Shown one piece after another: positions 2,403 to 18,699 of a DNA stretch of 64,000 nucleotides; the stretch's first letter is position 1, and the number at the start of each line of letters is the position of its first letter. The notes below the pieces were generated by a model. It was not told where the DNA came from. It did not search any database and worked only from the letters and a program-made list of their open reading frames with translations. This DNA comes from Polyangiaceae bacterium (GTDB lineage Bacteria > Myxococcota_A > Polyangia > Polyangiales > Polyangiaceae): contig JABSRN010000006.1 of NCBI GenBank assembly GCA_013214025.1, positions 1 to 64,000 of the forward strand, read 5' to 3'. A program made the position numbers and the translations under genes.

Positions 2403-3284
2403 TTAGTTGGCAACGTCTTCCGGCGCGGATTCCGGGTCCGGCTTGAGGTCCCATGGGGTTTCCCCGTTCGGAACCCTCTCTTCCTCGAGCCAGCGAATCA
2501 CAGCGTCGGCCCAAATGGCCCGGCCACGCTTGGTAGGGTGGATCTTGTCACTACCGCGGGGCAAATCCGGCACCAGAGCTGTACTGTCGAGATATCGGCA
2601 AGGCGGCGCGCTTTTACGAATGACCTCAAGTAAGTCTGGCTTGGCTCCCTCCCACAGCGGCGGGCCGATCCACACACAGGGTCGACCGCGAAGCTGACTG
2701 TTGAGCTTGGCGATGGTGGACGTTCTGGACTCGGGATCTACGATGAGCAACTCATTCGCACCCAGGGTGATCAAAACCAAATCCGGATGATATTTCCACA
2801 TGTAAGCCGTGAGCTCTTTGCCCCAGGCCCAGGTCGGGATGTACGTGCTCTGCTTATGCTTGAGAATGCTACGGATCCCCATAGCTTTGAGCTTAGGACT
2901 TAAGGCTAAACCTAGCGCGCCGGCGAATGAATCGCCGATATGTAAGACCGTGGTCCCCACCGGAAGAGGCGGCGGCTCCCTCGGCTCGATCGGCTTTGTC
3001 ACAACAGGGGGTGATGCGGCCTCGGCAGGGACCCCGGCCGTGGGTGAGACCGGAGCGGGCACTGCGGACTCGCCGGCTAACACATCTTCCTGTGGCTGCG
3101 ACGCCCTGGGCGACTCGGCGACTGCTTTGAGTTGCGCCGAATCTCCGGTCGCCGTGCCGTCTGTCCCGGGGGCTCGCGCGGGCGCTACCGGGCTGCAAGC
3201 CAGCATGCTGAGCCCGAATGCCAGTGACGCCGCCCGCCGGGAGATCTGTCGCGAATCGAAATTCGAAGTTCTCAGGGGCAACAT
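2403..3284 (-). CDS. SGNH/GDSL-like hydrolase lipoprotein
   Basis: From the ATG at 3284 this gives 293 residues; a longer frame to 3323 would overlap the upstream gene more. The chosen start has a GGA-containing Shine-Dalgarno and still overlaps the upstream stop by 13 bases, suggesting co-transcription. A signal peptide with RR and a lipobox-like LACS follows. After a Pro/Ala-rich linker the SGNH blocks appear: VLHIGDSFAGALG (block I, catalytic Ser in GDS), ITLGANELL (the G and N of blocks II/III) and DKIHPTKRG (block V, Asp and His). This predicts an esterase, acyltransferase or O-deacetylase acting on envelope glycans or lipids. The substrate is not inferable. Its neighbour is a SUMF1-fold lipoprotein. 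Confidence 0.8.
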   Translation of the reverse strand: MLPLRTSNFDSRQISRRAASLAFGLSMLACSPVAPARAPGTDGTATGDSAQLKAVAESPRASQPQEDVLAGESAVPAPVSPTAGVPAEAASPPVVTKPIEPREPPPLPVGTTVLHIGDSFAGALGLALSPKLKAMGIRSILKHKQSTYIPTWAWGKELTAYMWKYHPDLVLITLGANELLIVDPESRTSTIAKLNSQLRGRPCVWIGPPLWEGAKPDLLEVIRKSAPPCRYLDSTALVPDLPRGSDKIHPTKRGRAIWADAVIRWLEEERVPNGETPWDLKPDPESAPEDVAN

Positions 3285-4558
3285 GCCGAATTCCAGCCTA
3301 CGCCGACGTCTCGGTTTTTGCATGAACGGTCGCGGCCTACCGCGTTTCGCGCCCGATGGGAGCCCCCTTCGAGACGATACGCTGTGGGTCGACTTTTTTG
3401 ATACTCACGGCAATCGGAGTCGAAATTTGGCGAGCGCAGCACCCTCACCTCAGCAATTTCAGGCTGGAGGCTGTCATCTTTTGAGCTCGTCCCCCCAGCG
3501 GCAGTGCGCACACACCCGTATCCACGCTTCTCGGTAGTGCCCGCCGGGCATGGCCCCGCGCCCTCGGGAGCGCAGCGAACACCATTGAACGACTTGCCGC
3601 CGGGACACTCCATAGCGATCACATCTCGCGCGCAGCCGCCACCCTCGAGCGCGCTCGCGCACGCTTGTTTGGGATCCGACAGCGCGCAGCGAAATCCGAG
3701 ATGTGAACCGTGACGGTCGGCACCGAAACGGTTGCGAAGCCGATTGTGCATCCACTTGTCGAAACGTCGACTCCAGCTGCCGCCTCGATACACCCGCGTC
3801 TTGGAAGCGGACGCCAACCATGGGTATGGGCCAAAGGCATCCGCAGTCCATTCCCATACGTTGCCAGTCATATCCCGCAGGCCGAAGTCGCCGGCCGCAA
3901 AGCTCCCGACCGGACAGGTTCGGTGAAGTTTCCAACAGGTCCGACCCTCCGGCGTCTCGTTGCCCCAGGAGTATCGCTGGGTATCGCTACCGCCGCTGGC
4001 GGCGTACTCCCACTCCACCTCGCTAGGCAGACGGGCGCCATGGACCTCGCAATACGCCTTGGCTTGGTGCCAGTCGATGCAGTTCATCGGGTGATCCGCG
4101 CGGTTTTCTTTTCCGGAGGTACAGGTGATGCGCTTAGAGCGTGAAGCCGTACACTTCTCGGTACTCACACAGGCATCGTATTTGGATGCCGTGACTTCAG
4201 TTTCGTCCAGGCAGAAGGCCTGAATGCGAATCTGAAACCTAGGGTGCTCTTCCTCCGCGGATCGGCCTTGAGGAGAACCCACCCAAAACAATCCCCCCGG
4301 AATCAATTTCATGGTGGATGGACACACAAATGGCTCCACGACAGCTGCGGACGCGAGCGGTTTGGGGGGCGCCGCGGAGGACGCGGCCGATGCGCTCAAT
4401 GGGGTTCCTGGCGCAGCCGAACTGGACGCTGCAGTGCGCGACGCGGGAAGCGGCTCCGATTCTGCCTGACAACCAAGTAGGACGGCGGCTAGAGCACAGC
4501 AAACAGCCGTCGGCGAAATCACACGGCGTGTATTGGATCCGATCGCCAAGTCATCCAT
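3272..4558 (-). CDS. SUMF1/formylglycine-generating-enzyme-fold lipoprotein lacking the catalytic cysteines
   Basis: A 428-residue lipoprotein with lipobox LLGC. Residues about 80-295 form a SUMF1 (FGE-sulfatase) domain: MKLIPGGLFWVGS, DETEVTASKYDACV, HPMNCIDWHQAKAYCEVHGA, RLPSEVEWEYAA, DMTGNVWEWTAD, RVYRGGSWSRR and HLGFRCAL. True formylglycine-generating enzymes carry two active-site cysteines shortly after GGS. Here that stretch reads SWSRRFDKWMHNRLRNRFG, with no cysteine, so sulfatase activation is unlikely; a binding role or another SUMF1-type activity fits better. A Cys-containing tail follows (about 300-428) without a recognised domain. It precedes the GDSL-like gene with a short overlap, so the two are likely translated together. 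Confidence 0.85.
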   Translation of the reverse strand: MDDLAIGSNTRRVISPTAVCCALAAVLLGCQAESEPLPASRTAASSSAAPGTPLSASAASSAAPPKPLASAAVVEPFVCPSTMKLIPGGLFWVGSPQGRSAEEEHPRFQIRIQAFCLDETEVTASKYDACVSTEKCTASRSKRITCTSGKENRADHPMNCIDWHQAKAYCEVHGARLPSEVEWEYAASGGSDTQRYSWGNETPEGRTCWKLHRTCPVGSFAAGDFGLRDMTGNVWEWTADAFGPYPWLASASKTRVYRGGSWSRRFDKWMHNRLRNRFGADRHGSHLGFRCALSDPKQACASALEGGGCARDVIAMECPGGKSFNGVRCAPEGAGPCPAGTTEKRGYGCVRTAAGGTSSKDDSLQPEIAEVRVLRSPNFDSDCREYQKSRPTAYRLEGGSHRARNAVGRDRSCKNRDVGVGWNSACCP

Positions 4559-4631: not shown

Positions 4632-7025
4632 CTAGGGAGTTGATACCGACAGCGCCGGGGCGAGACCAGGAGCGCCGGAGGGCTCAGCGGAGCCAGATGC
4701 GGCAGCGCTGCCCGACGCTAGCTCCGGGGGCGCCTTCGTCGGGGTAGTGGGCCCCTCGTCTAAACAGCGTTCGGCGAGCCGCAACAAGCCGTCGCGCCGG
4801 CTGACGGATAATTGCTTTTGGTTGACCAAAGCCCGCGTCATCGCGGGGACGATCGTGCGCTCGCCCAAGGCACAACCGACGAAAATCCGCGTACGCCGGG
4901 CCTCTACATTTACGCTCGCGATGGGTAATTTCCGCGCGAGAGCGCGATCCAAGTGCGTCGCCGCCAACGTCCAGCGGCCCTGGGCGAACCAGTTCTTGCC
5001 CAGCAAGTAGTCGGCTATCCCGAGTTTGGGCTCCAACTCGGACCAGGCGCGAAGTTCGGCTGCCGATACTGCCCAGTCACGGCCTAGCGAGGCGTCCCCA
5101 ATCAGCAGCGCCACAATGGCCGTCCGTGCTGCGGAATGATTGGAAGCATACATTTTCACGTCCAGCGCCCGCTTATGGCCTTCGCTAACTAGAGCCTTGT
5201 ACCGCGCTTGGTAATGCAACAGCGCTTCGTTACCGTCCCCCGCCTCAAGCGCTAAGTCCCCCAAACGTTCTCGTGCGATGGAACGGTGAACTACGGAGAG
5301 GCTCTCGTCATCGGCGATCGCCTGGTACCGTTTCTTCGCATCTGTTTCTTCGTGCTTTCGGCGGTCACACTCCGCCAACGCCAGTCGGGCAGACAAGTGG
5401 CCCGCGTCCAGCTCCAACAAATCACCAAAAGACTTCTGAGCGGACTCTATGGCTTGCACCGAAAGCGCACGGAATCCGGCGCCGCTCAACCGGTCAACCA
5501 CATGCGGACAACGCCGGCCGACGATCCCCGGGCGGTCGAAGCGCGCTTTCGCCACCGCTAGAGCTTGCGGACTCAAGGGCTGCTTGGCCAGCTCCGCCTT
5601 CCATTGTTTTTCCAAGGTGGCCATGGAGATCCCATCCGTCACCGAAAAGAATGGCCCCCCCCCATACCATTCCGCGAGAGCGTCGCTGCCCCACTTCTCG
5701 CGAAACCAATGCACAAACGCACCAGCGACTTGGTACGCACGGCTCGAATTATGTTGAAAGAATCCAAGCCGAAACACCGAATCCAAGGGGGGCAATAATT
5801 CCAACTTGAGCATCGCCGCAGCCCAAACAGCGGGACTCAAGTCGGCGTCCAAGCTCGGCGCCGCGGCTACTGCCAGGCCCTCGATGCGCCCGGGATCGGG
5901 GATATAGCCGCCGGCCGTCCCCGCGATACGAAATGGCCCCTGCCCGAAGGCGCCAGCGACCACATGCGCCAGCTCGTGACCGAGAACAGGGTGAGGAAAT
6001 CCAGCCTGTTGAATGTAAATTGCGTTAAGCCAGGGCTTGGCAATATACGTCTTGGAGGCGCCCGTCAGGCGTCCCTTCTCGGCGGGCCCATCGAACAAGT
6101 AGACACGAATCTTGGGCGGGCCAGCATGCTCGAGATACGCCTCGAGCTGCCGAACGTGTGCGTCGCACTCTCGCGCCAGGGCGTGGGCGTAGGTTTTCGA
6201 GACCCCATCGCCATACAGCACTCGGCACCGTTGCCCATCCGCGCGGTGGCCGAGGGTCTGCGCAATGCTCTCGTCAGTTTGGTAATGGCCCAATTTCGGA
6301 CCGGACCACGTCACATAAGCGCTTGCGCACAGACCGAGAATCGCCATCGCTACGGTCGCTGGCGGCAATTCCAGGTTAAAATACACCGACCCGTCCGGGC
6401 GTCGGCGGAACAACGAGGCCGAGCAGGCAAGACAGAGCAGTGTCGCACTGCTACCGACGCGATAGGTGGTCATACGCGCGTGACCGTCAACAACCGTGTC
6501 GTAGATGGGCCCCGCGAAGAACCCGAAGAAGGGGTCAAAGGCGAACACCATTGGACTCGTGTAGAAGCGCCACAGGCTGATGCCGATCATGAGCAACGGA
6601 GCGATCAGCGAAAACAGAGGTCGCAAGAAATGTCGGCTAGGACGAAACACCAACGCCACCAGTGCTCCCCAGACGCCCCCCATAGCGCAGCCAAATAGCG
6701 GGCCCAGGACGAAGTCACTCGTCCCTTCCCAAAGATCGCAAAGGCCCGTGCGGAAGCCGTGCCCAACAAAAACCAAATAAGCGGCTGCGGCTAAGATCAC
6801 ACCGAACCATGCGCCATTGGCAAGAGCCGGCAAGGGATCGTGGCGCCAAATGACGGTAAGCTGCGCGGCGGTCAAGGCCGACAGCGTTGGTAAGAACAAC
6901 CCCATCGCGAGAGTGGCTTCGTAGCCTGGGCCATCCAACAAAGGCAAAAACCCCAGGATGGTTGAGATGGCGATGCTGAGGGCGAGCGCACTGGCCCCGA
7001 CACGCTTTGCCGGTGTATCGAGCAT
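4632..7025 (-). CDS. Membrane protein with gluzincin-type zinc peptidase domain and TPR-like C-terminus
   Basis: A 797-residue protein. Residues 1-240 contain about six hydrophobic segments. The central region carries HELAH at 350-354 followed by RIEGLA with E382, the HExxH-plus-Glu layout of gluzincin (peptidase MA-like) metalloproteases. Residues about 500-760 are helical and repeat-like, with alternating Ala/Leu helices (for example AIESAQKSFGDLLELDAGHL) suggestive of TPRs. The C-terminus is Ser/Ala/Pro-rich. It probably cleaves or assembles proteins at the periplasmic face, with the TPRs as docking surface; the substrate is unknown. The gene lies between lon and the SUMF1 gene on the same strand. 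No close named family is recognised. Confidence 0.75.
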   Translation of the reverse strand: MLDTPAKRVGASALALSIAISTILGFLPLLDGPGYEATLAMGLFLPTLSALTAAQLTVIWRHDPLPALANGAWFGVILAAAAYLVFVGHGFRTGLCDLWEGTSDFVLGPLFGCAMGGVWGALVALVFRPSRHFLRPLFSLIAPLLMIGISLWRFYTSPMVFAFDPFFGFFAGPIYDTVVDGHARMTTYRVGSSATLLCLACSASLFRRRPDGSVYFNLELPPATVAMAILGLCASAYVTWSGPKLGHYQTDESIAQTLGHRADGQRCRVLYGDGVSKTYAHALARECDAHVRQLEAYLEHAGPPKIRVYLFDGPAEKGRLTGASKTYIAKPWLNAIYIQQAGFPHPVLGHELAHVVAGAFGQGPFRIAGTAGGYIPDPGRIEGLAVAAAPSLDADLSPAVWAAAMLKLELLPPLDSVFRLGFFQHNSSRAYQVAGAFVHWFREKWGSDALAEWYGGGPFFSVTDGISMATLEKQWKAELAKQPLSPQALAVAKARFDRPGIVGRRCPHVVDRLSGAGFRALSVQAIESAQKSFGDLLELDAGHLSARLALAECDRRKHEETDAKKRYQAIADDESLSVVHRSIARERLGDLALEAGDGNEALLHYQARYKALVSEGHKRALDVKMYASNHSAARTAIVALLIGDASLGRDWAVSAAELRAWSELEPKLGIADYLLGKNWFAQGRWTLAATHLDRALARKLPIASVNVEARRTRIFVGCALGERTIVPAMTRALVNQKQLSVSRRDGLLRLAERCLDEGPTTPTKAPPELASGSAAASGSAEPSGAPGLAPALSVSTP

Positions 7026-7066: not shown

Positions 7067-9469
7067 CTAGAGCGCGGGGATCACGGCTTCAGATGCTAAG
7101 GCTGGCGCTGGTGCTCTACTCGGATCCAGAGTCATCGCTAGCACCTCGTCGACTTTGGAGATGAACCGAATCTCCAGCAAGGACAGAATCTCGCGGGGAA
7201 CTGCCTCTAGGTCACGACGGTTTTGCTCCGGCAGCAACAATGTGCGGACCCCGGCCCGATGAGCCGCCAGGACGCGATCCTTCACATTCGTTACCCGAAG
7301 AACGTTTCCTCGTAGGGTGAGCTCTCCGGCCATGGCGACCCCTGGCAGCGTAGGAATTCCCAACATCAGCGAGGATGTCGCGACAAACATGGGGATTCCG
7401 AAGCTCGCGCCGTCCCGAATGCTGCCACCTCGGGGGACATGCAAATGCAAGTCAATATCCTTCAGCCACTTGGGGTCTAGCCCCAGCTTGGAGGCGCCGC
7501 TCCGCACCGTGGAGACCGCAGCCGCCGCGGACTCTTTCATGATGTCTTGGAGACTGCCGGTGACTAGGATTTTGCCCTTGCCTGGCATGCGTGTCGCCTC
7601 AATAAACACGACGTCACCTCCAGCGCCGGAGACTCCCAGTCCCATCGCTACCCCCGGTCTCAAGCTGCGTTCTGCTAGCTCCGGATGAAAGCGCCGAGTT
7701 CCGAGCACATCGTCGATATGCTCGGGCGTCGCCTTGAGCCCGGTGGGGCGCTCGCCCTCGGCCATCCGCACCGCGATATCCCGACAGATAGCGCCTATCT
7801 CTCGCTCCAGTCCACGCACGCCCGATTCATGGGTAAAGTGGTCGATGATCGTCGATACCCCGACCTCAGTGAACTCCAGTTGAGGTTCGCTGACGCCATT
7901 CTCCCGAAGCTGCTTGGGCACGAGGAACTGCATGGCGATGTTTAATTTTTCGGAGCGCGTGTACCCGGGCACATCGATAATTTCCATCCGATCCCGAAGG
8001 GGGCCGGGGATCTTGTGACGCTCATTCGCGGTGGCCAGGAACGTGATCTGGGACAGATCAAACGGCATCTCAATGTAGTGGTCAATGAAGGTATCGTTCT
8101 GCTCCGGATCCAGCACCTCCAACAGTGCACTCGAGGGGTCCCCTCGTTCGTCTGAGCCCATCTTATCGACTTCGTCGAGTACGAAGACAGGGTTACGAGT
8201 ACCGACCTTTTTTAGCGACTGAATGATCCGCCCCGGCAAGGCCCCCACGTAGGTGCGCCGATGTCCGCGGATCTCTGCCTCGTCTCTCACGCCGCCAAGT
8301 GCGATCCGTCGATATCGGCGGCCCATGGCACGCGCGATGCTGCGCCCGAGGGAGGTCTTGCCCACGCCCGGTGGACCCACGAACAGCAGGATCGGGCCCT
8401 TCTTGTCATCTCGTAATTGGCGGACGGCAGCGTATTCGACGATCCGTCGCTTGACACGCTCGAGACCATAGTGGTCCTCATCCAAACATTGCGCGACACG
8501 CTTAACATCAATCTGGTCGGGCGTGCTGCGGTCCCAGGGTAGGTCCGCCAGCCACTCCACATAGGTGTGGGCCACGTTGTACTCGGCGGATTGGGGCTGA
8601 ATGGAACGCAAACGGGATATTTGCTTGCGGGCCACCTTCTCAGCCTCGGTGGGCATCTCCGCACGAGCGACGCGATCTCGGAGCTCGTCGAGCTCGTCTT
8701 CATCGCCACCTTCGCCGAGTTCTTCCAAGATGGTTCGCATCTGCTGGCGCAGCACGTACTCACGTTGGGAACGCCCGATGTCCGTCTTCAGCTGTTCAGA
8801 GAGTTTTTCCTTGGCCTGCAATACGTCCAGCTGCTTCTCGACAACATTGAGTACCAATGCCACGCGCTCTTTGGAGGCGAGGGCCTCAAGGACACGCTGC
8901 CTTTGGCCGACCGGCGCGAACTCGTCGGGAAAGTTCGACGCGATCAAATCCGCCAGTGCCCCGGCCTCCAACACGTTGTCTAGAATGCCGCTGGTTTCCC
9001 GGGGAAGGTCCGGCATCAGACTCAGCACTCGCCGGGTGCGCTCACGAAGGCGTTGACTCAGTTCGTCTAGTTCTTCGCTGGGCGTCCGATCGTCATGCAG
9101 AGGTTCAGTGACCGCCCGCATGAAGGGCTCCAGGCCTACGCTCTTTTTTACCCGAAATCTGCCGAGACCGTTCAACACCACGCTGTAGTTGGATTTGCCG
9201 AGACGAATCACTTTGACGACTCGAGCGAGTGTGCCGATCTCGTAGAGGTCGTCGAAGTCAGGCTCAACGGTCTCGGGATCTCGTTGGGTGAGCACCCCGA
9301 CAATCGCCCGTTCTTTCTCGGATATTTCCTCGACGAGGCGAACGCTTCTAGGCCGCCCAACGTTGATCGGTACGACCGACATCGGAAACAACACCGAGTT
9401 CTTGAGCGGCAGGATGGGCACCTGAGCCAGCCCTGTCGGCGTTGACGGCGGGTTACTCTCCGAACTCAT
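7067..9469 (-). CDS. lon: Lon-type AAA+ protein (LonA architecture) with altered protease dyad
   Basis: An 800-residue protein of usual LonA length. The LON substrate-binding domain is at about 15-215 (LPLKNSVLFPMSVVPINVGR). The AAA+ module has Walker A GPPGVGKTS at 365-373 and Walker B FVLDEVDK around 429-436. The P domain is at about 600-795. In LonA the protease site reads PKDGPSAG with catalytic Ser, and the catalytic Lys (K722 in E. coli) lies 43 residues on, directly before (L/V)LAAHR. Here the Ser block is IRDGASFG (S689 kept), but the residue before VLAAHRAG is Arg (R732, codon 7274-7276), and PIGGLKEK has become RVTNVKDR. The ATPase should work; proteolysis is doubtful. It may be a second Lon paralogue beside a canonical one elsewhere. 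Confidence 0.9.
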   Translation of the reverse strand: MSSESNPPSTPTGLAQVPILPLKNSVLFPMSVVPINVGRPRSVRLVEEISEKERAIVGVLTQRDPETVEPDFDDLYEIGTLARVVKVIRLGKSNYSVVLNGLGRFRVKKSVGLEPFMRAVTEPLHDDRTPSEELDELSQRLRERTRRVLSLMPDLPRETSGILDNVLEAGALADLIASNFPDEFAPVGQRQRVLEALASKERVALVLNVVEKQLDVLQAKEKLSEQLKTDIGRSQREYVLRQQMRTILEELGEGGDEDELDELRDRVARAEMPTEAEKVARKQISRLRSIQPQSAEYNVAHTYVEWLADLPWDRSTPDQIDVKRVAQCLDEDHYGLERVKRRIVEYAAVRQLRDDKKGPILLFVGPPGVGKTSLGRSIARAMGRRYRRIALGGVRDEAEIRGHRRTYVGALPGRIIQSLKKVGTRNPVFVLDEVDKMGSDERGDPSSALLEVLDPEQNDTFIDHYIEMPFDLSQITFLATANERHKIPGPLRDRMEIIDVPGYTRSEKLNIAMQFLVPKQLRENGVSEPQLEFTEVGVSTIIDHFTHESGVRGLEREIGAICRDIAVRMAEGERPTGLKATPEHIDDVLGTRRFHPELAERSLRPGVAMGLGVSGAGGDVVFIEATRMPGKGKILVTGSLQDIMKESAAAAVSTVRSGASKLGLDPKWLKDIDLHLHVPRGGSIRDGASFGIPMFVATSSLMLGIPTLPGVAMAGELTLRGNVLRVTNVKDRVLAAHRAGVRTLLLPEQNRRDLEAVPREILSLLEIRFISKVDEVLAMTLDPSRAPAPALASEAVIPAL

Positions 9470-9710: not shown

Positions 9711-10409
9711 GTGTCAAATACCTGGCGCTATCCGACCTCCTGGGGGGCCCTCCGCTATGCCGCGGCCTGCGGTCTCCTGGCGACAGCGTGTTGGAGTTGC
9801 GGGGGCGCAGCCAGCCTCGGGCCCCGGGAAACCGTCCAAGCGTACGCCCAAGCCCTGCGCTCCGGAGATAGCGAGGCGGCCTATGCGCTGTTGAGCGCGG
9901 AGGCGCGCAAAACGCTCACCTACAGCGCGTTCAAGAAGATCCTGGCGGAGAACCCGGACGAGGTTCGAGCCGTCGCCAACGCATTGCTCACGGAGGGCGG
10001 TCATCCCAGCGCTACAGCAACGCTCACCGCGACGGAGGGCGAGCCCTTGAAACTCGTCTACGAGAACGACCACTGGACCGTCGATCCCGCCGCCATCGAA
10101 ATCTACGGTCAATCGACCCCGGACGAAGCCATTCGGACCTTCGTCCGAGCCTTCGAAAACGGTCGCTTCGACGTTCTGATGCGCTTCGTGCCTGACGCCA
10201 AACGCGAGGGCTTGGACGCTAAAAAGCTAAAACTGGCTTGGACTGGCGATCAGAAAGACGAGCTAGAACGCTCGATTTCCGCGTTGAAGGCGGCTATTCC
10301 CGGAGGGAAGCTGCAGCGCCTAGGCGACCGAGCATCCCTGCGCTACGGAACGGGCAATACCGTCGAGCTGCTACGAGAAGCCGGCGTGTGGAAGATTGAG
10401 GAATTTTGA
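9711..10409 (+). CDS. Putative lipoprotein of unknown function upstream of hisB
   Basis: A 232-residue protein with a GTG start and a hydrophobic N-terminus that reaches a cysteine (LLATACWSCGG). The mature part holds two similar segments beginning ETVQAYAQALRSGDSEAAYA and EAIRTFVRAFENGRFDVLMR. Each opens like an NTF2/SnoaL-type small cone domain, so an internal duplication is likely. No catalytic motif is visible. Its stop is one base before the hisB ATG, so it is probably co-transcribed with hisBA-pgsA although its role is unrelated to histidine synthesis. The name of the family is not recognised. Confidence 0.75.
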   Translation: MSNTWRYPTSWGALRYAAACGLLATACWSCGGAASLGPRETVQAYAQALRSGDSEAAYALLSAEARKTLTYSAFKKILAENPDEVRAVANALLTEGGHPSATATLTATEGEPLKLVYENDHWTVDPAAIEIYGQSTPDEAIRTFVRAFENGRFDVLMRFVPDAKREGLDAKKLKLAWTGDQKDELERSISALKAAIPGGKLQRLGDRASLRYGTGNTVELLREAGVWKIEEF

Positions 10410-10410
10410 G

Positions 10411-10998
10411 ATGCGACGCGCCAAAGTCGAGCGGAAGACCAAAGAGACGGAAATATCGGTCAGCGTGAATCTGGACGGGACGGGCCGTTCCAAAATCCAG
10501 ACACCACTCCCGTTTCTGAGCCACATGTTGGAGCAGCTCTCGCGCCATGGGCTGATCGATCTTGAGGTCACTGCCACCGGCGACACAGAGATTGACGGGC
10601 ATCACACCACCGAGGACATCGGGATTGTGCTCGGCGCTGCGGTACTTGAGGCCCTCGGCGATCGTAAAGGGATCCGTCGCTACGGCGCCGCGACTCTCCC
10701 CATGGACGAGGCGCGCGCGACTGTCGCCATGGACCTATCCGGACGGCCGTTTTTCGTGTGGGAAGTACCCATCCCCAAGGCAAAACTCGGCGACTGGGAT
10801 AGCGAGCTGGCGGAAGTATTCTTCGAAGCCTTCGCTCGCAGCGCTAAGGCGAACTTGCACATGGTGCTGCACGCTGGGACCAACCTTCACCACTGCGTCG
10901 AGATCAACTTCAAGGCCTTTGCTCGGGCTCTCCGTCAAGCCGTTGAACTCGACCCCCGGGCTACCGGCATCCCCTCCACGAAGGGCTCCCTCGACTGA
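10411..10998 (+). CDS. hisB: Imidazoleglycerol-phosphate dehydratase HisB
   Basis: A 195-residue monofunctional HisB using the ATG at 10411; an in-frame TTG at 10396 lies inside the previous gene and is less likely. The enzyme converts imidazole-glycerol phosphate to imidazole-acetol phosphate, step six of histidine synthesis, in the cytoplasm. Diagnostic motifs are present: the Mn-binding GHHTTEDIGI, LPMDEARATVAMDLSGRP, and the second metal motif around GTNLHHCVEINFKAFARALR. The C-terminus ends STKGSLD, close to the usual STKGxL. The stop overlaps the hisA ATG by one base. There is no N-terminal histidinol-phosphatase fusion. Confidence 0.97.
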   Translation: MRRAKVERKTKETEISVSVNLDGTGRSKIQTPLPFLSHMLEQLSRHGLIDLEVTATGDTEIDGHHTTEDIGIVLGAAVLEALGDRKGIRRYGAATLPMDEARATVAMDLSGRPFFVWEVPIPKAKLGDWDSELAEVFFEAFARSAKANLHMVLHAGTNLHHCVEINFKAFARALRQAVELDPRATGIPSTKGSLD

Positions 10999-11720
10999 TG
11001 CGTGTCATTCCCGCAATCGATCTTCTCGACGGCCAAGCGGTACGTCTCAAGCAAGGTCTGTATGACCAGGTTACCACCTACGACCAGCGCCCCGGTGAAA
11101 TCGCCAAGGAATGGCGCCAGGTGGTCGACCGCCTGCATGTTGTCGATCTTGAGGGCGCGCGCGGCGGAAAACCGGCACAGGTCGATCTAGTCCGCGAAGT
11201 CGTGGAGGGATTCGGTGACGGCGTGCAAGTCGGCGGCGGGGTGCGAAATCTCGAGGCAGTGGAAGCCTATTTTTCATTGGGCGTAAGTCGAGTGGTGCTC
11301 GGCACAGCGGCCATCAAGAACCCAGAGTTCGTTCGGGAGGCGGCCAAGCTGTATCCTGACCGTGTAATCGTCGCCGTCGATGCGAAAGACGGCATGGTGG
11401 CAACCGAAGGCTGGCTGGACGTGTCCGAGATGACAGCAGTCGATCTCGCGCGCCAAATGGCAGACGTCCCCCTCGCTGGCGTGCTGTACACCGACATCGC
11501 ACGAGACGGCATGGAGGTCGGTCCGAACATTGAGGAAACCGCGCGCCTGGCTCGCGAAGGCGGCGTCCCCGTCATCGCCAGTGGCGGCGTCGGTACTCTC
11601 GCCCACCTTTCGGCTCTTGCCGCGACGGACGCTGACATCCAGTCAGTTATCGTCGGGCGGGCGCTTCACGAACGCCGCTTCACCCTCACCGAAGCCATCG
11701 CAGCCGCCGGACCCGTCTAG
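10998..11720 (+). CDS. hisA: Phosphoribosylformimino-5-aminoimidazole carboxamide ribotide isomerase HisA
   Basis: A 240-residue TIM-barrel enzyme of normal length, catalysing the Amadori isomerisation of ProFAR to PRFAR. The N-terminus has PAIDLLDGQAVRLKQG with the catalytic Asp in IDLLDG. The middle has VIVAVDAKDGMVATEGW with the second Asp, and the phosphate-binding segments include VQVGGGVRN and VIASGGVGT. It directly follows hisB with a one-base ATGA-type overlap. hisH, which often lies between hisB and hisA, is not in this window, so the pathway genes must be dispersed. Confidence 0.97.
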   Translation: MRVIPAIDLLDGQAVRLKQGLYDQVTTYDQRPGEIAKEWRQVVDRLHVVDLEGARGGKPAQVDLVREVVEGFGDGVQVGGGVRNLEAVEAYFSLGVSRVVLGTAAIKNPEFVREAAKLYPDRVIVAVDAKDGMVATEGWLDVSEMTAVDLARQMADVPLAGVLYTDIARDGMEVGPNIEETARLAREGGVPVIASGGVGTLAHLSALAATDADIQSVIVGRALHERRFTLTEAIAAAGPV

Positions 11721-11743
11721 GCCGCTCGTCACCTGAGTCCCTC

Positions 11744-12397
11744 TTGCCTGATCCGATCATCAAGCCGTCGCGAGAAGAACGGGTAGCGCGGCGTCGATCC
11801 CTGCGCGAGGACGCGTGGAATATTCCCAATCTGCTGACGATGGGGCGAATCGCCGTCATCCCATTGGTTCTGTGGTTGTTAGACCGCGGTTCCCCCAAAG
11901 ACTGCGTGTGGGCCGCCATCGTCTACTCATTGGCAGCTCTTACAGATCTGCTCGACGGTTACCTCGCCCGACGAATGGGAATCGTCAGCGTGCTCGGTAA
12001 GTTTCTCGACCCCTTAGCCGACAAGTTGCTCGTCATGTCGACGCTTATCTGGCTGATTCCCATGGGCAGAATGCCCGAGTGGGCAGTGATCCTCCTGCTG
12101 GGTCGAGAAATGGGCATCACCGGCTTGCGCTCCATCGCCAGTAGCGAAGGCGTCGTGATAGCCGCCGGCAGTGGTGGCAAACAGAAGACCGCACTCCAGA
12201 TGATCGGCATTCTTTGCCTGATGATCGGCTACCCCTACCCGATAAATCTCGGAATCATCGACCTAGGGGTCGTCGATCTTGTTCTGGTCGGGCGAATGCT
12301 CGTTTACATCTCCTTGGTGTACTCGATGACCAGCGCCTTTCAGTACCTGAGCACCTTTGCGGAAGCCGTCGAGGCCAAAGACCGCCGGACGAACTGA
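11744..12397 (+). CDS. pgsA: CDP-diacylglycerol--glycerol-3-phosphate 3-phosphatidyltransferase
   Basis: A 217-residue integral membrane enzyme with a TTG start at 11744. It carries the CDP-alcohol phosphotransferase signature LDGYLARRMG...LGKFLDPLADK (DGxxARxxxxxxxxGxxxDxxxD), which binds metal and CDP-diacylglycerol. About five to six transmembrane helices are predicted by eye. It makes phosphatidylglycerol phosphate, the precursor of phosphatidylglycerol and cardiolipin. It lies 23 bases after hisA, so it is probably in the same transcript. Other CDP-alcohol transferases share the motif; the N-terminal IPNLLTMGRIAVIPLVLWLL and length fit PgsA best. Confidence 0.9.
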   Translation: MPDPIIKPSREERVARRRSLREDAWNIPNLLTMGRIAVIPLVLWLLDRGSPKDCVWAAIVYSLAALTDLLDGYLARRMGIVSVLGKFLDPLADKLLVMSTLIWLIPMGRMPEWAVILLLGREMGITGLRSIASSEGVVIAAGSGGKQKTALQMIGILCLMIGYPYPINLGIIDLGVVDLVLVGRMLVYISLVYSMTSAFQYLSTFAEAVEAKDRRTN

Positions 12398-12484
12398 CGT
12401 CGCTGTGCGGTGAAATCGCTCTGTAATACGAGCTTTTGCCGGTCGGTAGACATAGGCCCCGGCGCCCTGCTACGACACGCCCAC

Positions 12485-12850
12485 ATGACTATTCGCCAAT
12501 TTCGCGCTGCCAGTTTCGCCACACTATTCCTGGTCCTAGCCTCCGGTTGTGGCGAACAAGAAGAAGGCGACCGCTGTGAAACCAACGCTGACTGCGCCTC
12601 TGGATTGCTCTGTGTCGATGTCAACGACGTGGACCTCTGCTGCCCCCAGACTGGCGCGACTGTCGACGCCTGTGTGGGCATGGGTCTGATCTCGACGAAC
12701 AACGGCGGTTCTGCTGGCTCCTCCGCTGCCCCTGCGGGCGGTACATCGAGCGGCGGAGCCGATGCCAGCGCCGCCGTTGACTCGGGAAGCGCTGCGGTCG
12801 ACGCCACCTCCAGCGATACGGGTACCAGCGCCGACTCGGCCGCAGAATAG
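12485..12850 (+). CDS. Small lipoprotein with cysteine motif and Ala/Ser/Gly-rich tail
   Basis: Using the ATG at 12485 gives 121 residues. The signal peptide ends at a lipobox-like LASGC. A Cys-rich segment (CETNADCASGLLCVDVNDVD followed by LCC) resembles the Dickkopf-like Cys repeats seen in other myxobacterial lipoproteins, including the large hydrolase at 14408-16972. The rest is low-complexity Gly/Ser/Ala/Asp, a typical surface tether. A longer frame from 12410 lacks a sensible signal peptide. It ends two bases before the FliQ/SctS-like gene. Function unknown. Confidence 0.7.
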   Translation: MTIRQFRAASFATLFLVLASGCGEQEEGDRCETNADCASGLLCVDVNDVDLCCPQTGATVDACVGMGLISTNNGGSAGSSAAPAGGTSSGGADASAAVDSGSAAVDATSSDTGTSADSAAE

Positions 12851-12852
12851 TC

Positions 12853-13101
12853 GTGGACGCCATCACTGAGCTGGGCCGTGACGCTCTCCTGTTGGCCGTA
12901 AAACTATCCCTTCCTGTGGCCGGCGCAGCAGCTCTCAGTGGAGCCTTGACTGCCCTGGTGCAAAACGTCAGTCAGGTCCACGATCCCTCGGTTAGCCACC
13001 TTCCTCGCTTGCTCGCCGTCACAGCCGTACTCCTCACCATGGGGCCGTGGATGGGCTCGGAGATCGTGAATTTTGCTCGTCAGATTTGGGCCATCGTTTG
13101 A
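12853..13101 (+). CDS. Orphan FliQ/SctS-like export-apparatus protein
   Basis: An 82-residue protein with a GTG start, two transmembrane helices and the family's hairpin layout: DALLLAVKLSLPVAGAAALS, then LTALVQNVSQVHDPSVSHLP, then LLAVTAVLLTMGPWMGSEIV. In FliQ/SctS the corresponding blocks are LSLPxL(L/V)xxLxVGL, QAxTQIxExTLxFxPKL and (A)GPWM. Its length (80-90 aa) also fits. FliQ/SctS subunits sit with FliP/R or SctR/T in the export gate of flagella and type III secretion. No other export gene is in this window; the neighbours are a lipoprotein and epmA. It may serve a gate encoded elsewhere. Confidence 0.8.
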   Translation: MDAITELGRDALLLAVKLSLPVAGAAALSGALTALVQNVSQVHDPSVSHLPRLLAVTAVLLTMGPWMGSEIVNFARQIWAIV

Positions 13102-13120
13102 ACAGCCTTGGCGCCCACGA

Positions 13121-14374
13121 GTGGATCGACGGCGAGTCTCGGTGACCCCGCAGTTGTCACCGTCAGAACTTGAAGCCGGCGTGCCCCGCCAGGGACTGCG
13201 GCTCACGGGACGGGTCGCGATAGACGGTTCCGAAGTTGAACTGACCGACGCCTACACCAGCGTGCCCATAAACTGGGACGGCGAGGCTACGCTGGGGGAT
13301 CTACTGATCGTCGCCGGGGACTACGATGGTAGCCATTTTTGCGTGCGAGAGATCTGTTATCGCCAAAGCGGTGGTGGTGCCGCCTCGATCCCTAACAACG
13401 CGGCTCATGGGATAAACAGTGAGGTAGCTCGTTTCACGACTGCCGGAGTAGGCCGAAGGCTGCGGGCCCGCGATCTCGCCCTTCGGAGCATCCGGCAATA
13501 TTTTCGGGATGAAGCTTTCGTAGAGGTACAGACGCCCGTCCGCGTGCCGTCGCCTGGCGTTGAAGTCTACGTTGAGGCCATCCCGAGTGGTGACAGCTAC
13601 CTGATCACCTCTCCCGAGCTACACATGAAACGGCTCTTGGTGGGCGGCCTGCCGAAGATCTACCAAGTGGCCCACGCCTCCCGGGCGGACGAACAAGGAG
13701 CTCAGCACGAGCCCGAGTTTTGTCTCATCGAGTGGTACCGCGCATTCGCCGGTCAAGAACACGTCATGGTCGACACCGAGGCACTGGTACGTCGAGTAGC
13801 CCAAGCCACCATTGAACCCCCAGATGCTGACTCGCTCCGCATCGTCTCCGATGGCCGGCAGATCGAACTCAACGCTCCCTTCGACCGGCTCACTGTCAGC
13901 GACGCATTCGCCAACTGGGCGGATACCCCCGACGTGGTCGCATTGGCAGCCGAGAATGAGGACCGCTATTTTGAACTGTTCGTTGAACGGATCGAACCGC
14001 GGCTGACCGAACTGAGGCGCCCCACCTTTTTGACAGAATATCCAGTGAGTCAGGCGTCGTTGGCGCGAGCTATCCCCGATCGCCCCGACTTTGCCGAACG
14101 TTTTGAGCTTTACATCGGCGGGGTTGAACTGTGTAACGGCTTTGGCGAACTGACGTGCCCCCGCGAACAACGCTCTCGAATGGAGGCTGACAATGTCGCG
14201 CGGGTGACGCAGGGCAAGGCCCCCTATCCAGTCGATGAGCGATTTCTCGGAGCGCTGGCTGAAGGCATGCCCCCATCTGGAGGAAACGCTCTGGGGTTCG
14301 ATCGGCTACTCGCACTCTGCCTGGGCGCTGACGACATCCAGTCTGTCTGCGCGTTCCCGAACAACTGGCGTTGA
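13121..14374 (+). CDS. epmA: EF-P lysine ligase EpmA (GenX/PoxA), class II aaRS-like
   Basis: From the GTG at 13121 this is 417 residues; a TTG at 13073 inside the previous gene and a GTG at 13142 are alternatives. The enzyme activates (R)-beta-lysine and attaches it to a conserved Lys of elongation factor P. Class II synthetase motifs are visible: TPVRVPSPGVEVYVEAI, motif 2 around HASRADEQGAQHEPEF and LIEWYRAF, the region GVELCNGFGELTCP, and motif 3 GGNALGFDRLLALCLG. About 95 residues before the catalytic core may form a small OB-like domain (LRLTGRVAIDGSEVELTDAY), which short EpmA enzymes lack. It is not LysRS because the full anticodon domain is missing. efp and epmB are not in the window. 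Confidence 0.88.
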   Translation: MDRRRVSVTPQLSPSELEAGVPRQGLRLTGRVAIDGSEVELTDAYTSVPINWDGEATLGDLLIVAGDYDGSHFCVREICYRQSGGGAASIPNNAAHGINSEVARFTTAGVGRRLRARDLALRSIRQYFRDEAFVEVQTPVRVPSPGVEVYVEAIPSGDSYLITSPELHMKRLLVGGLPKIYQVAHASRADEQGAQHEPEFCLIEWYRAFAGQEHVMVDTEALVRRVAQATIEPPDADSLRIVSDGRQIELNAPFDRLTVSDAFANWADTPDVVALAAENEDRYFELFVERIEPRLTELRRPTFLTEYPVSQASLARAIPDRPDFAERFELYIGGVELCNGFGELTCPREQRSRMEADNVARVTQGKAPYPVDERFLGALAEGMPPSGGNALGFDRLLALCLGADDIQSVCAFPNNWR

Positions 14375-14407
14375 CCTCAGCGACGCGAAATGCCCGCCGT
14401 CACCCGG

Positions 14408-16972
14408 CTATTGACCGACCTCGGGGACCAAGCCCTCGACGGACATGCTCAGGAAGCGAACTACGTCGGCGTTCGCCTCCGCCACGTCAAACACGACGAA
14501 GTGACCGTCGCGCCCTTCCGGAGGCCCATATTGCCGCACCGCCAGGGTTACGGGGATGCCGTCGGCGGCAAAGGTGCTGCTATAGGGCGGTGGCATGGGG
14601 TCGTTCGGCGAACTGAAGAGGTTGCTCGCGCCATCTGCGGAACTGTGGGCGGTCACTTCGACCATTCCGGCGGCAGAGACGTAGGTCTTCATCGTCACAT
14701 TCGGACTGAAGGTATCGCCAAGCCCGTACGTTGCGAATAGATGCAACGGCGCCACGAACTCGTCGCGGGTGCGAGATGCGATTTTGGCAAAATTGAGCGG
14801 ATCCGCTGGATCGATCCAGTGCTGCAGCAGAGTGAGCACCGGGTGTTTGTCACCGCCGAATAGGCTTCCGTCGGTTTTCATATCCTGCAGGGCAAAGGGA
14901 ACCGCCATCGCGATATTCACTGGCGCCGTCTTGCTCAGGAGCGAATCCATTAAACTAGCTCCGTTGCCCGACAGCACGGCCCCCCGAAACTGGGTGGCGT
15001 AGGGCAAAGCCAAACTGCCATGAGTCGAACCCTGAGAGTGGCCGAAGTACGCCAGTTTGGCGCCGTCCACCTGGATGGCACTGCCTCCGGATTCTGCGGA
15101 AGTCACGTTCAAGCTGGACGCGAATCGAGCCATGGTGATGATGTCCGCTGCGCCCTGGAGCGGGTTGCCCCTCGCCGCCGCGGGGTTAACGAAGTTAAAG
15201 AACAGGTTGTTCGGCGATTCTGTTGAGTCTCCTCGCCGAGGGCCGTGTTGGGGCGCATCAAATCCGAGCACCGCGACGCCATCCCGGGCGAGTGCTCCCG
15301 CTACCTCATCTCGCATACCGCTGCGGAACGAGCCGCCCGTGCCGTGCCCGTAGACGACCAGAGGCCAACCATCGATGGGCATCACCGAACCGGTGGGTAC
15401 CGCAATCGCCACACAGACCGATTCGCTGCCGGGCGCGACGCTGACGTCGATGCCTCCGCCCTCCATCAGATAAGGCGCTGTTCCTTGTTGAAAAATCGGT
15501 GTGGCAACGAGCAAGTGATACTCGTCATAGTCCGCAGCCTGTTCTCCACAGGCTCGGGTGTCCTCGGCCTGACTGCAGGGCGACACGGCGGTTCCGCCGC
15601 ACTTGATCCAGTCACTGCTGACAGCCGCCGGAGCTCCCTCAGCGGCCGCGGCTAGGCCGGCCATGATATCCAGCGTGGGTCCCACAGTGAAAACGGTCGC
15701 GTTGAGGATATCGGCCGTCGCGATGCCCTCGGTGCCTAGGTGCGCACGGAACCCGGCATACTTCGCGTGGGCCGTCGCCAGGGCACCGTCCCCGGGCGCC
15801 GCGGAGTCGAGCAAGGCTTGCAGGTGCTCAGAGCGTTCAATCGCCGCTTCGTCACCCCCGAGCAAATCGGTCGTTAGCCAAACCGCGTAGGTGTGGTTCG
15901 GCAACAGTGGGCGCCCCAAAGGCCGGCGGACTGACAACCAATCAGCGCATAGATACTTGCCTTGAGCGGTATTGGCGTTCCAGGTAACGCCCTCCTGGCG
16001 GCCGTACTCAGGCGCCCCTTCCGTGATGTCGACCCACTTGACCACGCCGGGGCTCTCCGCCGACGGCATGTTGATGGAATTCGAAAATCGAAACGTTACC
16101 GTCGGGTAGGTTCCGAAGCCAGACTCGTTCGCTTCAATCGCGTCCACGTACACCTGAACGGGATCAAAACCGAGGAGGCCGGCGCCTGGCGTCGGAAATC
16201 CGCTCAGGTCGACGCGGCCATTCACCAGCCGTACGTCATTAGGATACGGCAAACGAAAAAAGTCGCCGTCTTGCCCGGCAGGACTGGTCGCTCCCGGAAC
16301 TTCGTAGAAGGCGCGAGTGACCCCGTTCGCTCGCCCCTGGCAGGTCTCCCCTGCAAAAGTCGGAACTCCGAAGCTAGGTATGCCTCCCACTGCCGGGCTA
16401 CACATGACCCCTGGATTGGTTGGATCGATACTGGCCATGCAGGTTAGGCCACTCAGACAATCGGTGGGCGTGACACAGGCTCCGCCCCAGTCGACAGCAC
16501 CTTCGGGTACACACTGCAAACCGAAACCCTGGATGCCGCAGCGCAAACCTGTCGAACAGTCGATTTCCGTAGAACAGCTATCGCCGGCGGCTCCGTTCAG
16601 TGAAAGCGTACACTCACCTATTATACCCGTCGGACCGACACATTTTAATCCGTCCTCGCACTCAGCGGAGACAACACAGGTCGTGCCCGCCGTACTGGCG
16701 GCGCTTGGTTCGCACGCGCTATCGGTGCAGGTCAATCCAGTGCGACAACTTTCCGTCGCACTGCACGCTTCTCCAATTCCGGGGAACGTGGGCTGAACGA
16801 ACACCTCGTCGCCGAGGTGTTCGTCTCCGACAACAGTGTTTGCCTCGAAACATCCAGGCACCAACGATGCCAGAACGATTGTACCGCTCAGCATTGTGCC
16901 ACTCAGCACTACGCGAGATAAAACTATGCGAAGCGAAGCCATGCGAGATAAAACTATGCGAAACGAAGCCAT
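14408..16972 (-). CDS. Large alpha/beta-hydrolase-fold lipoprotein with Cys-rich N-terminal repeats
   Basis: The ATG at 16972 has a strong Shine-Dalgarno (GGAGG six bases upstream), giving 854 residues; the frame extends to a GTG at 17041. The signal peptide contains a 10-residue duplication (MASFRIVLSR / MASLRIVLSR) and ends at the lipobox LVPGC. Residues about 45-180 hold four to five Dickkopf-like Cys repeats (ESCRTGLTCTDSAC, AECEDGLKC, IDCSTGLRC, TDCLSGLTC). The catalytic part has PLVVYGHGTGGSF, VLGFDAPQHG, the nucleophile elbow FGHSQGSTHG (Ser near residue 646) and HFVVF at the end as a candidate His. It is likely an outer-membrane esterase or depolymerase; substrate unknown. Confidence 0.8.
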   Translation of the reverse strand: MASFRIVLSRMASLRIVLSRVVLSGTMLSGTIVLASLVPGCFEANTVVGDEHLGDEVFVQPTFPGIGEACSATESCRTGLTCTDSACEPSAASTAGTTCVVSAECEDGLKCVGPTGIIGECTLSLNGAAGDSCSTEIDCSTGLRCGIQGFGLQCVPEGAVDWGGACVTPTDCLSGLTCMASIDPTNPGVMCSPAVGGIPSFGVPTFAGETCQGRANGVTRAFYEVPGATSPAGQDGDFFRLPYPNDVRLVNGRVDLSGFPTPGAGLLGFDPVQVYVDAIEANESGFGTYPTVTFRFSNSINMPSAESPGVVKWVDITEGAPEYGRQEGVTWNANTAQGKYLCADWLSVRRPLGRPLLPNHTYAVWLTTDLLGGDEAAIERSEHLQALLDSAAPGDGALATAHAKYAGFRAHLGTEGIATADILNATVFTVGPTLDIMAGLAAAAEGAPAAVSSDWIKCGGTAVSPCSQAEDTRACGEQAADYDEYHLLVATPIFQQGTAPYLMEGGGIDVSVAPGSESVCVAIAVPTGSVMPIDGWPLVVYGHGTGGSFRSGMRDEVAGALARDGVAVLGFDAPQHGPRRGDSTESPNNLFFNFVNPAAARGNPLQGAADIITMARFASSLNVTSAESGGSAIQVDGAKLAYFGHSQGSTHGSLALPYATQFRGAVLSGNGASLMDSLLSKTAPVNIAMAVPFALQDMKTDGSLFGGDKHPVLTLLQHWIDPADPLNFAKIASRTRDEFVAPLHLFATYGLGDTFSPNVTMKTYVSAAGMVEVTAHSSADGASNLFSSPNDPMPPPYSSTFAADGIPVTLAVRQYGPPEGRDGHFVVFDVAEANADVVRFLSMSVEGLVPEVGQ
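16913..16972. repeat. 30-bp tandem duplication in a signal-peptide coding region
   Basis: Two adjacent 30-bp units, 16913-16942 and 16943-16972, differ at one base and the next five bases restart the unit. Read on the minus strand they encode ten residues twice at the start of the large hydrolase lipoprotein. Each copy carries an ATG in the reading frame. Confidence 0.9.
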
Positions 16973-17136
16973 GCGAGCCCTCCAGTGCGCTCCGAAGACG
17001 GAGCGAAGCGGCCGAGGATACTTGGGATTCGACTGTTCCACCAGTCTCGGCGGCTGACAGCGGCCCTGGCCCGATCCGCGAGCTTCTACGTGTGTTCTAA
17101 CGCCAGATCGGCGGGAGCCGTGAGGGGCCTCAGACT

Positions 17137-17796
17137 TCAGTCGTATTGCAGCAGGGAAATCGGGCGTGTGGAGCCGAGTTTTCGGGCACCACCCAGGAAC
17201 CCCAGTTCGATAACAAACGCAAAGCTGACGACTAGGCCCCCACGCCGTCCCACCAACTCAGCAGCCGCCCCCGCTGTCCCACCTGTGGCGAGCAGATCAT
17301 CGATAATTACCACGCGACTTCCCTTGCGAACCGCGTCTCGATGAATCTCCAACTCGCCTGAGCCGTATTCTAATTCGTAAGATACCCGATCCGACTTCCA
17401 CGGCAATTTGCCGGGCTTGCGAATGGGCACGAAGCGTTTGTTCAATCGCAAGGCCAGCGGAGCGCCAAAAATAAAGCCACGGGACTCGATGCCGACAATC
17501 GTGTCGAAATCCAGCTCGATCAGCTGTTCGGCAAAACTGTCTATGGTCATGTGAAAGCCTCGGGCATCCGCAAGCAGTGGCGTGATGTCTTTAAACACGA
17601 TTCCGGGACTCGGAAAGTCGGGCACGTCGCGGATGAGACCCCGGATGTAGCTCAGGCGATCCTGGTCAGGATCTGTCACAGCTTTCGCTTTCGCCTTCAG
17701 TGTTTTCTTTCGCCCAACTCCCCGGGGCGTAGGCGAGCGACGCGGCGGCACCGGTCTTTTTGATCCAACGGAGGGGCGCTTCTTCGCAACGGCCAT
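17137..17796 (-). CDS. apt: Adenine phosphoribosyltransferase with basic N-terminal extension
   Basis: A 219-residue protein. The core from about residue 47 matches APRT: YIRGLIRDVPDFPSPGIVFK, DITPLLAD, GIESRGFIFGAPLA, FVPIRKPGKLPW, and the PRPP-binding loop VVIIDDLLATGGTA. It salvages adenine and PRPP to AMP in the cytoplasm. The first 45 residues are unusually rich in Lys, Arg and Pro (RPSVGSKRPVPPRRSPTPRG) and are not part of the normal 170-180 residue enzyme. They may be a disordered nucleic-acid-binding tail, or the real start may lie downstream, but no good internal ATG is near. surE, also nucleotide-related, lies just upstream on the same strand. Confidence 0.95.
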   Translation of the reverse strand: MAVAKKRPSVGSKRPVPPRRSPTPRGVGRKKTLKAKAKAVTDPDQDRLSYIRGLIRDVPDFPSPGIVFKDITPLLADARGFHMTIDSFAEQLIELDFDTIVGIESRGFIFGAPLALRLNKRFVPIRKPGKLPWKSDRVSYELEYGSGELEIHRDAVRKGSRVVIIDDLLATGGTAGAAAELVGRRGGLVVSFAFVIELGFLGGARKLGSTRPISLLQYD

Positions 17797-17901
17797 GGGG
17801 ACGTGCTTAGCACGATATCAGCCGAGAACCTTCGAGCAGCCCCTAATAAGGCGCTGGTGCTGCAAGTGCCTAGAAACGGTAGTTAGGCAGCGTAACATCG
17901 G

Positions 17902-18699
17902 CTAGGACGCGTCCACCGGCAATGCTCCAACCCTGGCCGCAAGATCGGATGCTACGTGTTGATGACGGGAAGACCACAGCTCCAAGGACACCGGAGTGAT
18001 TCCTATCACCCCAGCGTCGTATGCCTGGGTGTCCGAATCCTGCATTTCCTTGTGGGACACATGGCTGCCTCCGATCCAAAGATATTCTTTTCCTCGGGGG
18101 TCCCGCCGGAAGTCGACCGCTTCTTCATATAGGCGCACGCCGACCACGGTTGCGCATAGGTCCCAGCTGTCGCCGGGGGGGAAATTGACGTTGAACAGAG
18201 AGCCACCCTCAGGCCCCTCACTCAACAACGAGCGAGCCAATTGGGCAGACACGCGGGCCGCCGCGGCAGGATCCGTACGGGAGTCCGCGGATAAGGCGAG
18301 AGCGCAGAATCCGCTCAGCGCGGCTTCTCGCGCCGCCGCCACAGTACCGCTGTAGAATATGTCGTTGCCCAGGTTCAGGCCGTGGTTGAGCCCTGACAGC
18401 ACCAAGTTCGGCCGGCCCGAAAGCACACGATTTCCGGAATTGAGCGCCACATATATACAATCAGCGGGCGTCCCGTTGACAGAAAACACGCCCGGCTCCT
18501 GCTCCAGTAGCCTCAACGGTCGATGTAGCGTGATGCCATGACTAGCAGCGCTTTGCTCATTGGCGGGCGCGCAGACGACGACCCTTGCGAAGCGTTTTAG
18601 CTCAGCTACGAGGACACGGAGCCCAGAAGCCCTATATCCGTCGTCGTTTGACACCAAGATCAAGGGGAGGTCGCGGCTTGGCTTGGGAGAATTTGTCAC
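17902..18699 (-). CDS. surE: 5'/3'-nucleotidase SurE
   Basis: A 265-residue protein of usual length. The metal-binding N-terminus is LILVSNDDGYRASGLRVL (DD), followed by VVVCAPANEQSAASHGIT (the family's AP...S.SIT), NGTPADCIYVAL, and LVLSGLNHGLNLGNDIFYSG (the family's SGxNxGxN...YSGTVxAA), ending with TVAAAREAALSG. SurE dephosphorylates nucleoside monophosphates and is linked to stress survival. It is separated by about 100 bases from apt on the same strand. The TS of the usual ITND becomes VSND, a mild change. Nothing suggests inactivation. Confidence 0.95.
   Translation of the reverse strand: MTNSPKPSRDLPLILVSNDDGYRASGLRVLVAELKRFARVVVCAPANEQSAASHGITLHRPLRLLEQEPGVFSVNGTPADCIYVALNSGNRVLSGRPNLVLSGLNHGLNLGNDIFYSGTVAAAREAALSGFCALALSADSRTDPAAAARVSAQLARSLLSEGPEGGSLFNVNFPPGDSWDLCATVVGVRLYEEAVDFRRDPRGKEYLWIGGSHVSHKEMQDSDTQAYDAGVIGITPVSLELWSSRHQHVASDLAARVGALPVDAS

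Follow-up and report, generated by a model that had tools for sequence, protein, structure and literature searches.

The window, a 64,000-nucleotide stretch of Polyangiaceae DNA, encodes on its minus strand (7067–9469) a protein of LonA descent in which the catalytic lysine has been replaced by arginine, and which we believe, with a probability of roughly 0.7, would use ATP to unfold or chaperone other proteins, its Ser-Lys peptidase site being dead. Lon is the textbook example of a motor and a peptidase combined in one chain. The window protein has the domain order, the LON domain, the AAA+ motifs and the Lon_C domain in common with E. coli LonA (MEROPS S16, TIGR00763), but differs from it in carrying Arg for Lys and Ala for Thr704, and in the rewriting of both the PKDGPSAG and the PIGGLKEK blocks. 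An earlier note on this DNA had proposed that the protein unfolds or chaperones its substrates and has little or no proteolytic activity, and the comparison with relatives described here favours that proposal.

The open reading frame starts with ATG, has no internal stops and encodes 800 amino acids, its LonA-type make-up being evident from profile matches and orthologues. It scores 829 bits against the TIGR00763 lon model (cut-off 608), with the LON substrate-binding domain at residues 17–210 (PF02190, 137.6 bits), the AAA+ module (PF00004, 82 bits) and the Lon_C domain (PF05362, 209.8 bits) all far above the Pfam cut-offs, and the Lon lid (PF22667, 63 bits) above its own. The Walker A motif GPPGVGKT (residues 365–372; 8354–8377, minus strand) is identical in 28/28 family orthologues, and Walker B (D432-E433; 8171–8176, minus strand) is invariant in the same number. 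The pore-loop RRTYVG, N482 and the lid motif GVRxLE(R/K) are kept across the 28 family relatives, the sole deviation in the lid motif being that two rows have V instead of L at position x+1. The Pfam scores and the alignment of the 28 orthologues bear out the earlier claim that the LON domain and AAA+ motifs are intact. Identity to E. coli Lon is 42%. The protein is not of the archaeal LonB type, as it has DGASFG instead of [E/D]GDSA[S/T] and possesses a LON domain; full matches to TIGR00764 (69.7 of 516.6 bits) and to the BREX BrxL model TIGR02653 (49.5 of 628 bits, confined to the C-terminal part) are likewise absent. AlphaFold modelled this protein poorly (pLDDT 68.7, pTM 0.35), and the model was set aside.

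A phmmer comparison with the Lon chains of E. coli and Thermus in the PDB gave an end-to-end alignment that is free of gaps in the dyad region, and MAFFT with 73 relatives gave the same placement of the dyad. By both methods the serine is kept, S689 (AGC, 7403–7405, minus strand) being equivalent to E. coli S679, whilst R732 (CGC, 7274–7276, minus strand) stands in place of the catalytic K722. A714 (7328–7330, minus strand) replaces T704 in the alignment, the canonical TGEIT having become AGELT. In the phmmer alignment of the Ser block the window's DGASFG lies against DGPaAG, and the GPAAG of the E. coli PDB chain is taken to be an engineered S679A; in the Lys block VLRVTNVKDRVLAAHR lies against VLPIGGLKEKLLAAHR, with R732 on K722 and K730 on K720. 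The residues equivalent to H665, H667 and D676 are retained as His675, His677 and Asp686. The earlier note had assigned the serine and the arginine to these very codons and had read IRDGASFG for PKDGPSAG and RVTNVKDR for PIGGLKEK, all of which agrees with our codon check and alignments. It had also named as a refutation an alignment gap that brings a lysine to the dyad position, and this is ruled out: no gap in either alignment restores Lys at the dyad position. Chance or sequencing error is excluded, because several codons of the motif have changed and the loss of the PKDGPSAG block is common to 28 subclade orthologues. Since the canonical Ser-Lys dyad in a PKDGPSA context was not found, the serine being accompanied by Arg732 for Lys in the motif IRDGASFG, we file the protein as a non-peptidase homologue and not as a protease.

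The search for a canonical lon elsewhere in the genome that the earlier note had recommended was run on the assembly (5.77 Mb, 184 contigs), and it yielded three further full-length LonA-type genes, on contigs C119 (836-aa frame), C82 (896) and C3 (867), all of which carry KDGPSAG and GG(F/L)KEK and so the canonical dyad. The picture of two myxobacterial Lons therefore has to be enlarged, since besides the window lon there are three full-length genes of the LonA type and some fragments. Because three canonical full-length genes coexist with it, the window lon is an additional copy; its product is about 38–49% identical to these paralogues. On contig C28 (L012 3231–3660) there are also pieces of a broken Lon C-terminus, spread over several frames and closest to the C3 paralogue (65–76% identity), which could be either a frameshifted copy or assembly damage.

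A Lon match is present in every genome of the family (108/108), and the family yielded about 95 orthologues of the window lon. In a tree computed with the dyad columns left out, the clade of the window protein is separate from the canonical clade of the C119 type, and the window gene is a member of a second, order-wide LonA paralogue. When the residues that the alignment places at Ser, Thr704 and Lys were compared, Ser or Lys proved to be missing in 35 of the 126 sequences that represent this paralogue in the order, against 0/20 in the sister paralogue and 0/22 in relatives outside the order. The serine has been replaced by Ala, Gly, Cys or Asn and the lysine by Gln, Met, Ile or Arg, and parsimony on the tree requires at least 14 dyad changes, or 18 if loss is irreversible. 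Several independent losses are likely, because the replacement residues vary, although their exact number is uncertain because branches inside the subclade are unevenly supported. In the window's 28-row subclade the PKDGPSAG motif is gone in all members, usually to xDAAS. The subclade would not be uniformly dead, however, because several of its members (rows L015, L024, L026, L101, L106, L111, L057 and L107) keep both Ser and Lys despite the changed motif; these may be active or inactive.

The constraint acting on the altered copies was assessed from 272 columns that are conserved in 69 intact family orthologues, with variability scored in the window subclade. Released columns number 2/59 in the N region, 1/151 in AAA+ and 9/62 in the protease domain, where the dyad loops hold seven of the nine (window positions 685, 687, 689, 690, 713, 714 and 732; Fisher p 6e-4 within the domain). 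The release of constraint is concentrated at the active site. General decay of the protease domain was rejected: the terminal-branch ratio P/AAA is 1.06 vs 0.97 (p 0.23), with no clear domain-wide acceleration, and what has changed lies around the site. In pairs of closely related dead proteins dN/dS is 0.02–0.22 in all domains, the protease domain included, which remains under purifying selection. Purifying selection there would be explained by a scaffold role, and equally by weak activity; some residual peptidase activity is possible because Ser689 and the equivalents of H665, H667 and D676 are kept.

A decaying duplicate on its way to becoming a pseudogene would fit the quicker evolution of the subclade, in which the median AAA+ terminal branch is 0.146 vs 0.067. 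Against this, frames and motor motifs are intact in 28 relatives, and hardly any genome of the family lacks the gene; pseudogene status was rejected, since dN/dS values this low in dead pairs are not those of pseudogenes, and we regard decay as very improbable. The pattern is instead that of a pseudoenzyme retained for its motor and scaffold. We also think it unlikely that the protein has remained a protease whose site is merely altered, so that Arg732 or the nearby Lys730 would serve as the general base for Ser689. Such a site could draw on the retained Ser689, His675, His677 and Asp686 and on K730, which is present in most orthologues, and in one survey the dyad is given as S679, K/R722, which permits either residue at the second position (PMC2605481). 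However, arginine is only one of four replacements, sister lineages have lost the serine, and the equivalent of T704 has gone too. The retention of K730 is not compensatory, because canonical Lon (KEK) conserves this residue equally well, and compensation by it was discarded as unspecific. The dyad of different chemistry envisaged in the earlier note is disfavoured in the same way, because the replacements of the lysine vary (Q, M, I, R) and Ser has been lost in many orthologues. A further reading makes the protein a regulatory subunit that mixes with an active Lon paralogue and alters its substrates or rate, much as ClpR and FtsHi, which are precedents for it, relate to ClpP and FtsH (PMC8197885). 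The presence of three canonical LonA-type genes beside it in the genome speaks for this reading, but mixed rings are unlikely at about 38–49% identity and the conserved gene partner of the window lon is no lon, so that this too seems quite unlikely.

In Lon proteins the N domain binds the substrate and the AAA+ ring unfolds it and threads it into the chamber. If the window protein is, as we favour, an unfoldase or chaperone with a dead dyad, it would assemble as a Lon-like hexamer in which the AAA+ motor and substrate-binding domain bind, unfold and thread the substrate with ATP; with no active dyad the chain would be released uncut, and the action would be that of a chaperone or remodelling unfoldase. 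The substrates may be membrane or envelope proteins, given the membrane protein encoded by the partner gene described below. The serine mutant of yeast Pim1 is reportedly an engineered Lon used as a chaperone. Likewise human LONP1 S855A, an ATPase without peptidase, still acts on substrates and suppresses aggregation, which the Walker A mutant K529A and the Walker B mutant E591A do not (PMC8368198), and the LonE424Q/K722A double mutant, dead as both protease and ATPase, still binds substrate (PMC11986505). Whereas LONP1 S855A and the Pim1 mutant were engineered from active enzymes, the loss in the window paralogue is natural and recurrent.

The partner gene (4632–7025, minus strand) starts 41 nt downstream of lon on the same strand, lon being the first gene of a conserved two-gene unit. 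Conserved adjacency, an AlphaFold model and a fold match characterise its product as a 797-residue protein with seven transmembrane helices, a putative gluzincin site (HExxH...E) and a TPR region. H350, E351 and H354 of the HELAH motif (residues 350–354; 5964–5978, minus strand) are invariant in 60/60 sequences, as is E382 (EGxA; 5880–5882, minus strand), the candidate third zinc ligand. No Pfam peptidase family match was found for the protein. In its confident model (pLDDT 86.6, pTM 0.86) the N-terminal part consists of seven long, membrane-type helices, and there is a middle domain as well as a TPR array; the Foldseek list consists mostly of TPR proteins, and residues 249–485 match the Grimontia (Vibrio) collagenase 7wss_A with Z 15.7 over 225 aligned residues at 3.4 Å. 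The modelled middle domain fits a gluzincin fold like that of M9 collagenases, an assignment supported by this alignment with Vibrio-type M9 enzymes. Loop charges favour an N-in orientation, with one weak helix in the count, and the putative peptidase and TPR domains are predicted to be periplasmic, away from Lon. The partner is found in 106/108 genomes of the family and 182/192 of the class, usually in single copy, and is co-located with the lon paralogue mainly in the window's order. It lies directly downstream of that paralogue on the same strand in 82/99 decidable genomes from several families, including other families of the order where its identity has dropped to about 30%. The genetic link between the two is well supported, and the locus suggests that the genetic partner of lon belongs to an undescribed membrane family resembling metallopeptidases.

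A more specific version of the pseudoprotease explanation, and one compatible with it, is that the two proteins are a working pair in which the Lon motor acts on or feeds the 7-TM gluzincin, making Lon's own peptidase site dispensable. The invariance of HExxH...E in the partner and the adjacency in several families speak for such a pair, and the partner is adjacent in 27/27 decidable dead Lons vs 55/72 intact ones (Fisher p 0.005). The correlation between adjacency and dyad loss is only suggestive, as it loses significance when tested on 6–8 phylogenetically independent pairs, too few of which are informative, and a causal link between the two is not well supported. In addition, many intact Lons share the same neighbour, and the predicted topology separates the gluzincin and TPR domains from Lon; the working pair is thus a doubtful proposition. 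A cytosolic Lon motor and a 7-TM gluzincin/TPR cutter forming a two-part quality-control machine at the inner membrane of these myxobacteria-like bacteria is a still more speculative idea, but if it were true, division of labour would have let the Lon peptidase site die repeatedly.

Losses of the active site are known from other AAA+ proteins. Like the window Lon, FtsHi and ClpR are relatives or subunits of AAA+ proteases that lack the active site and are still important (PMC8197885), but they belong to other protease families and to the plant chloroplast, and are neither bacterial nor Lon. RadA and BrxL similarly keep a Lon-type C-terminal domain as a structure without the dyad (PMC10164562), but have other motor domains, DNA functions and no LON N-domain. 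A 2008 survey counted two inactive homologues among 117 Lons, and in our literature search neither the present paralogue nor any other full-length bacterial LonA with recurrent loss of the dyad turned up. At least 14 losses of the peptidase site under strong selection on the motor suggest that unfolding or chaperoning by Lon can itself be the selected function. Lon's two jobs have so far been separated mainly by point mutants; the dead and intact orthologues of this one paralogue would offer natural pairs that separate them.

Upstream of lon and divergent from it lies a gene for a putative lipoprotein (9711–10409, plus strand) with weak NTF2-like matches (MecA_N, DUF4878), which in the family usually keeps its place next to the lon paralogue, even where the gluzincin gene has moved away. 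Beyond it, the order hisB, hisA, pgsA, epmA-like, apt, surE (10396–18699) is kept beside the lon paralogue in several subclade relatives. Downstream of the partner are FGE-sulfatase-type and DUF459/SGNH-like genes (2403–4558, minus strand), which are conserved near the locus in several subclade relatives (L146, L149 and L154).
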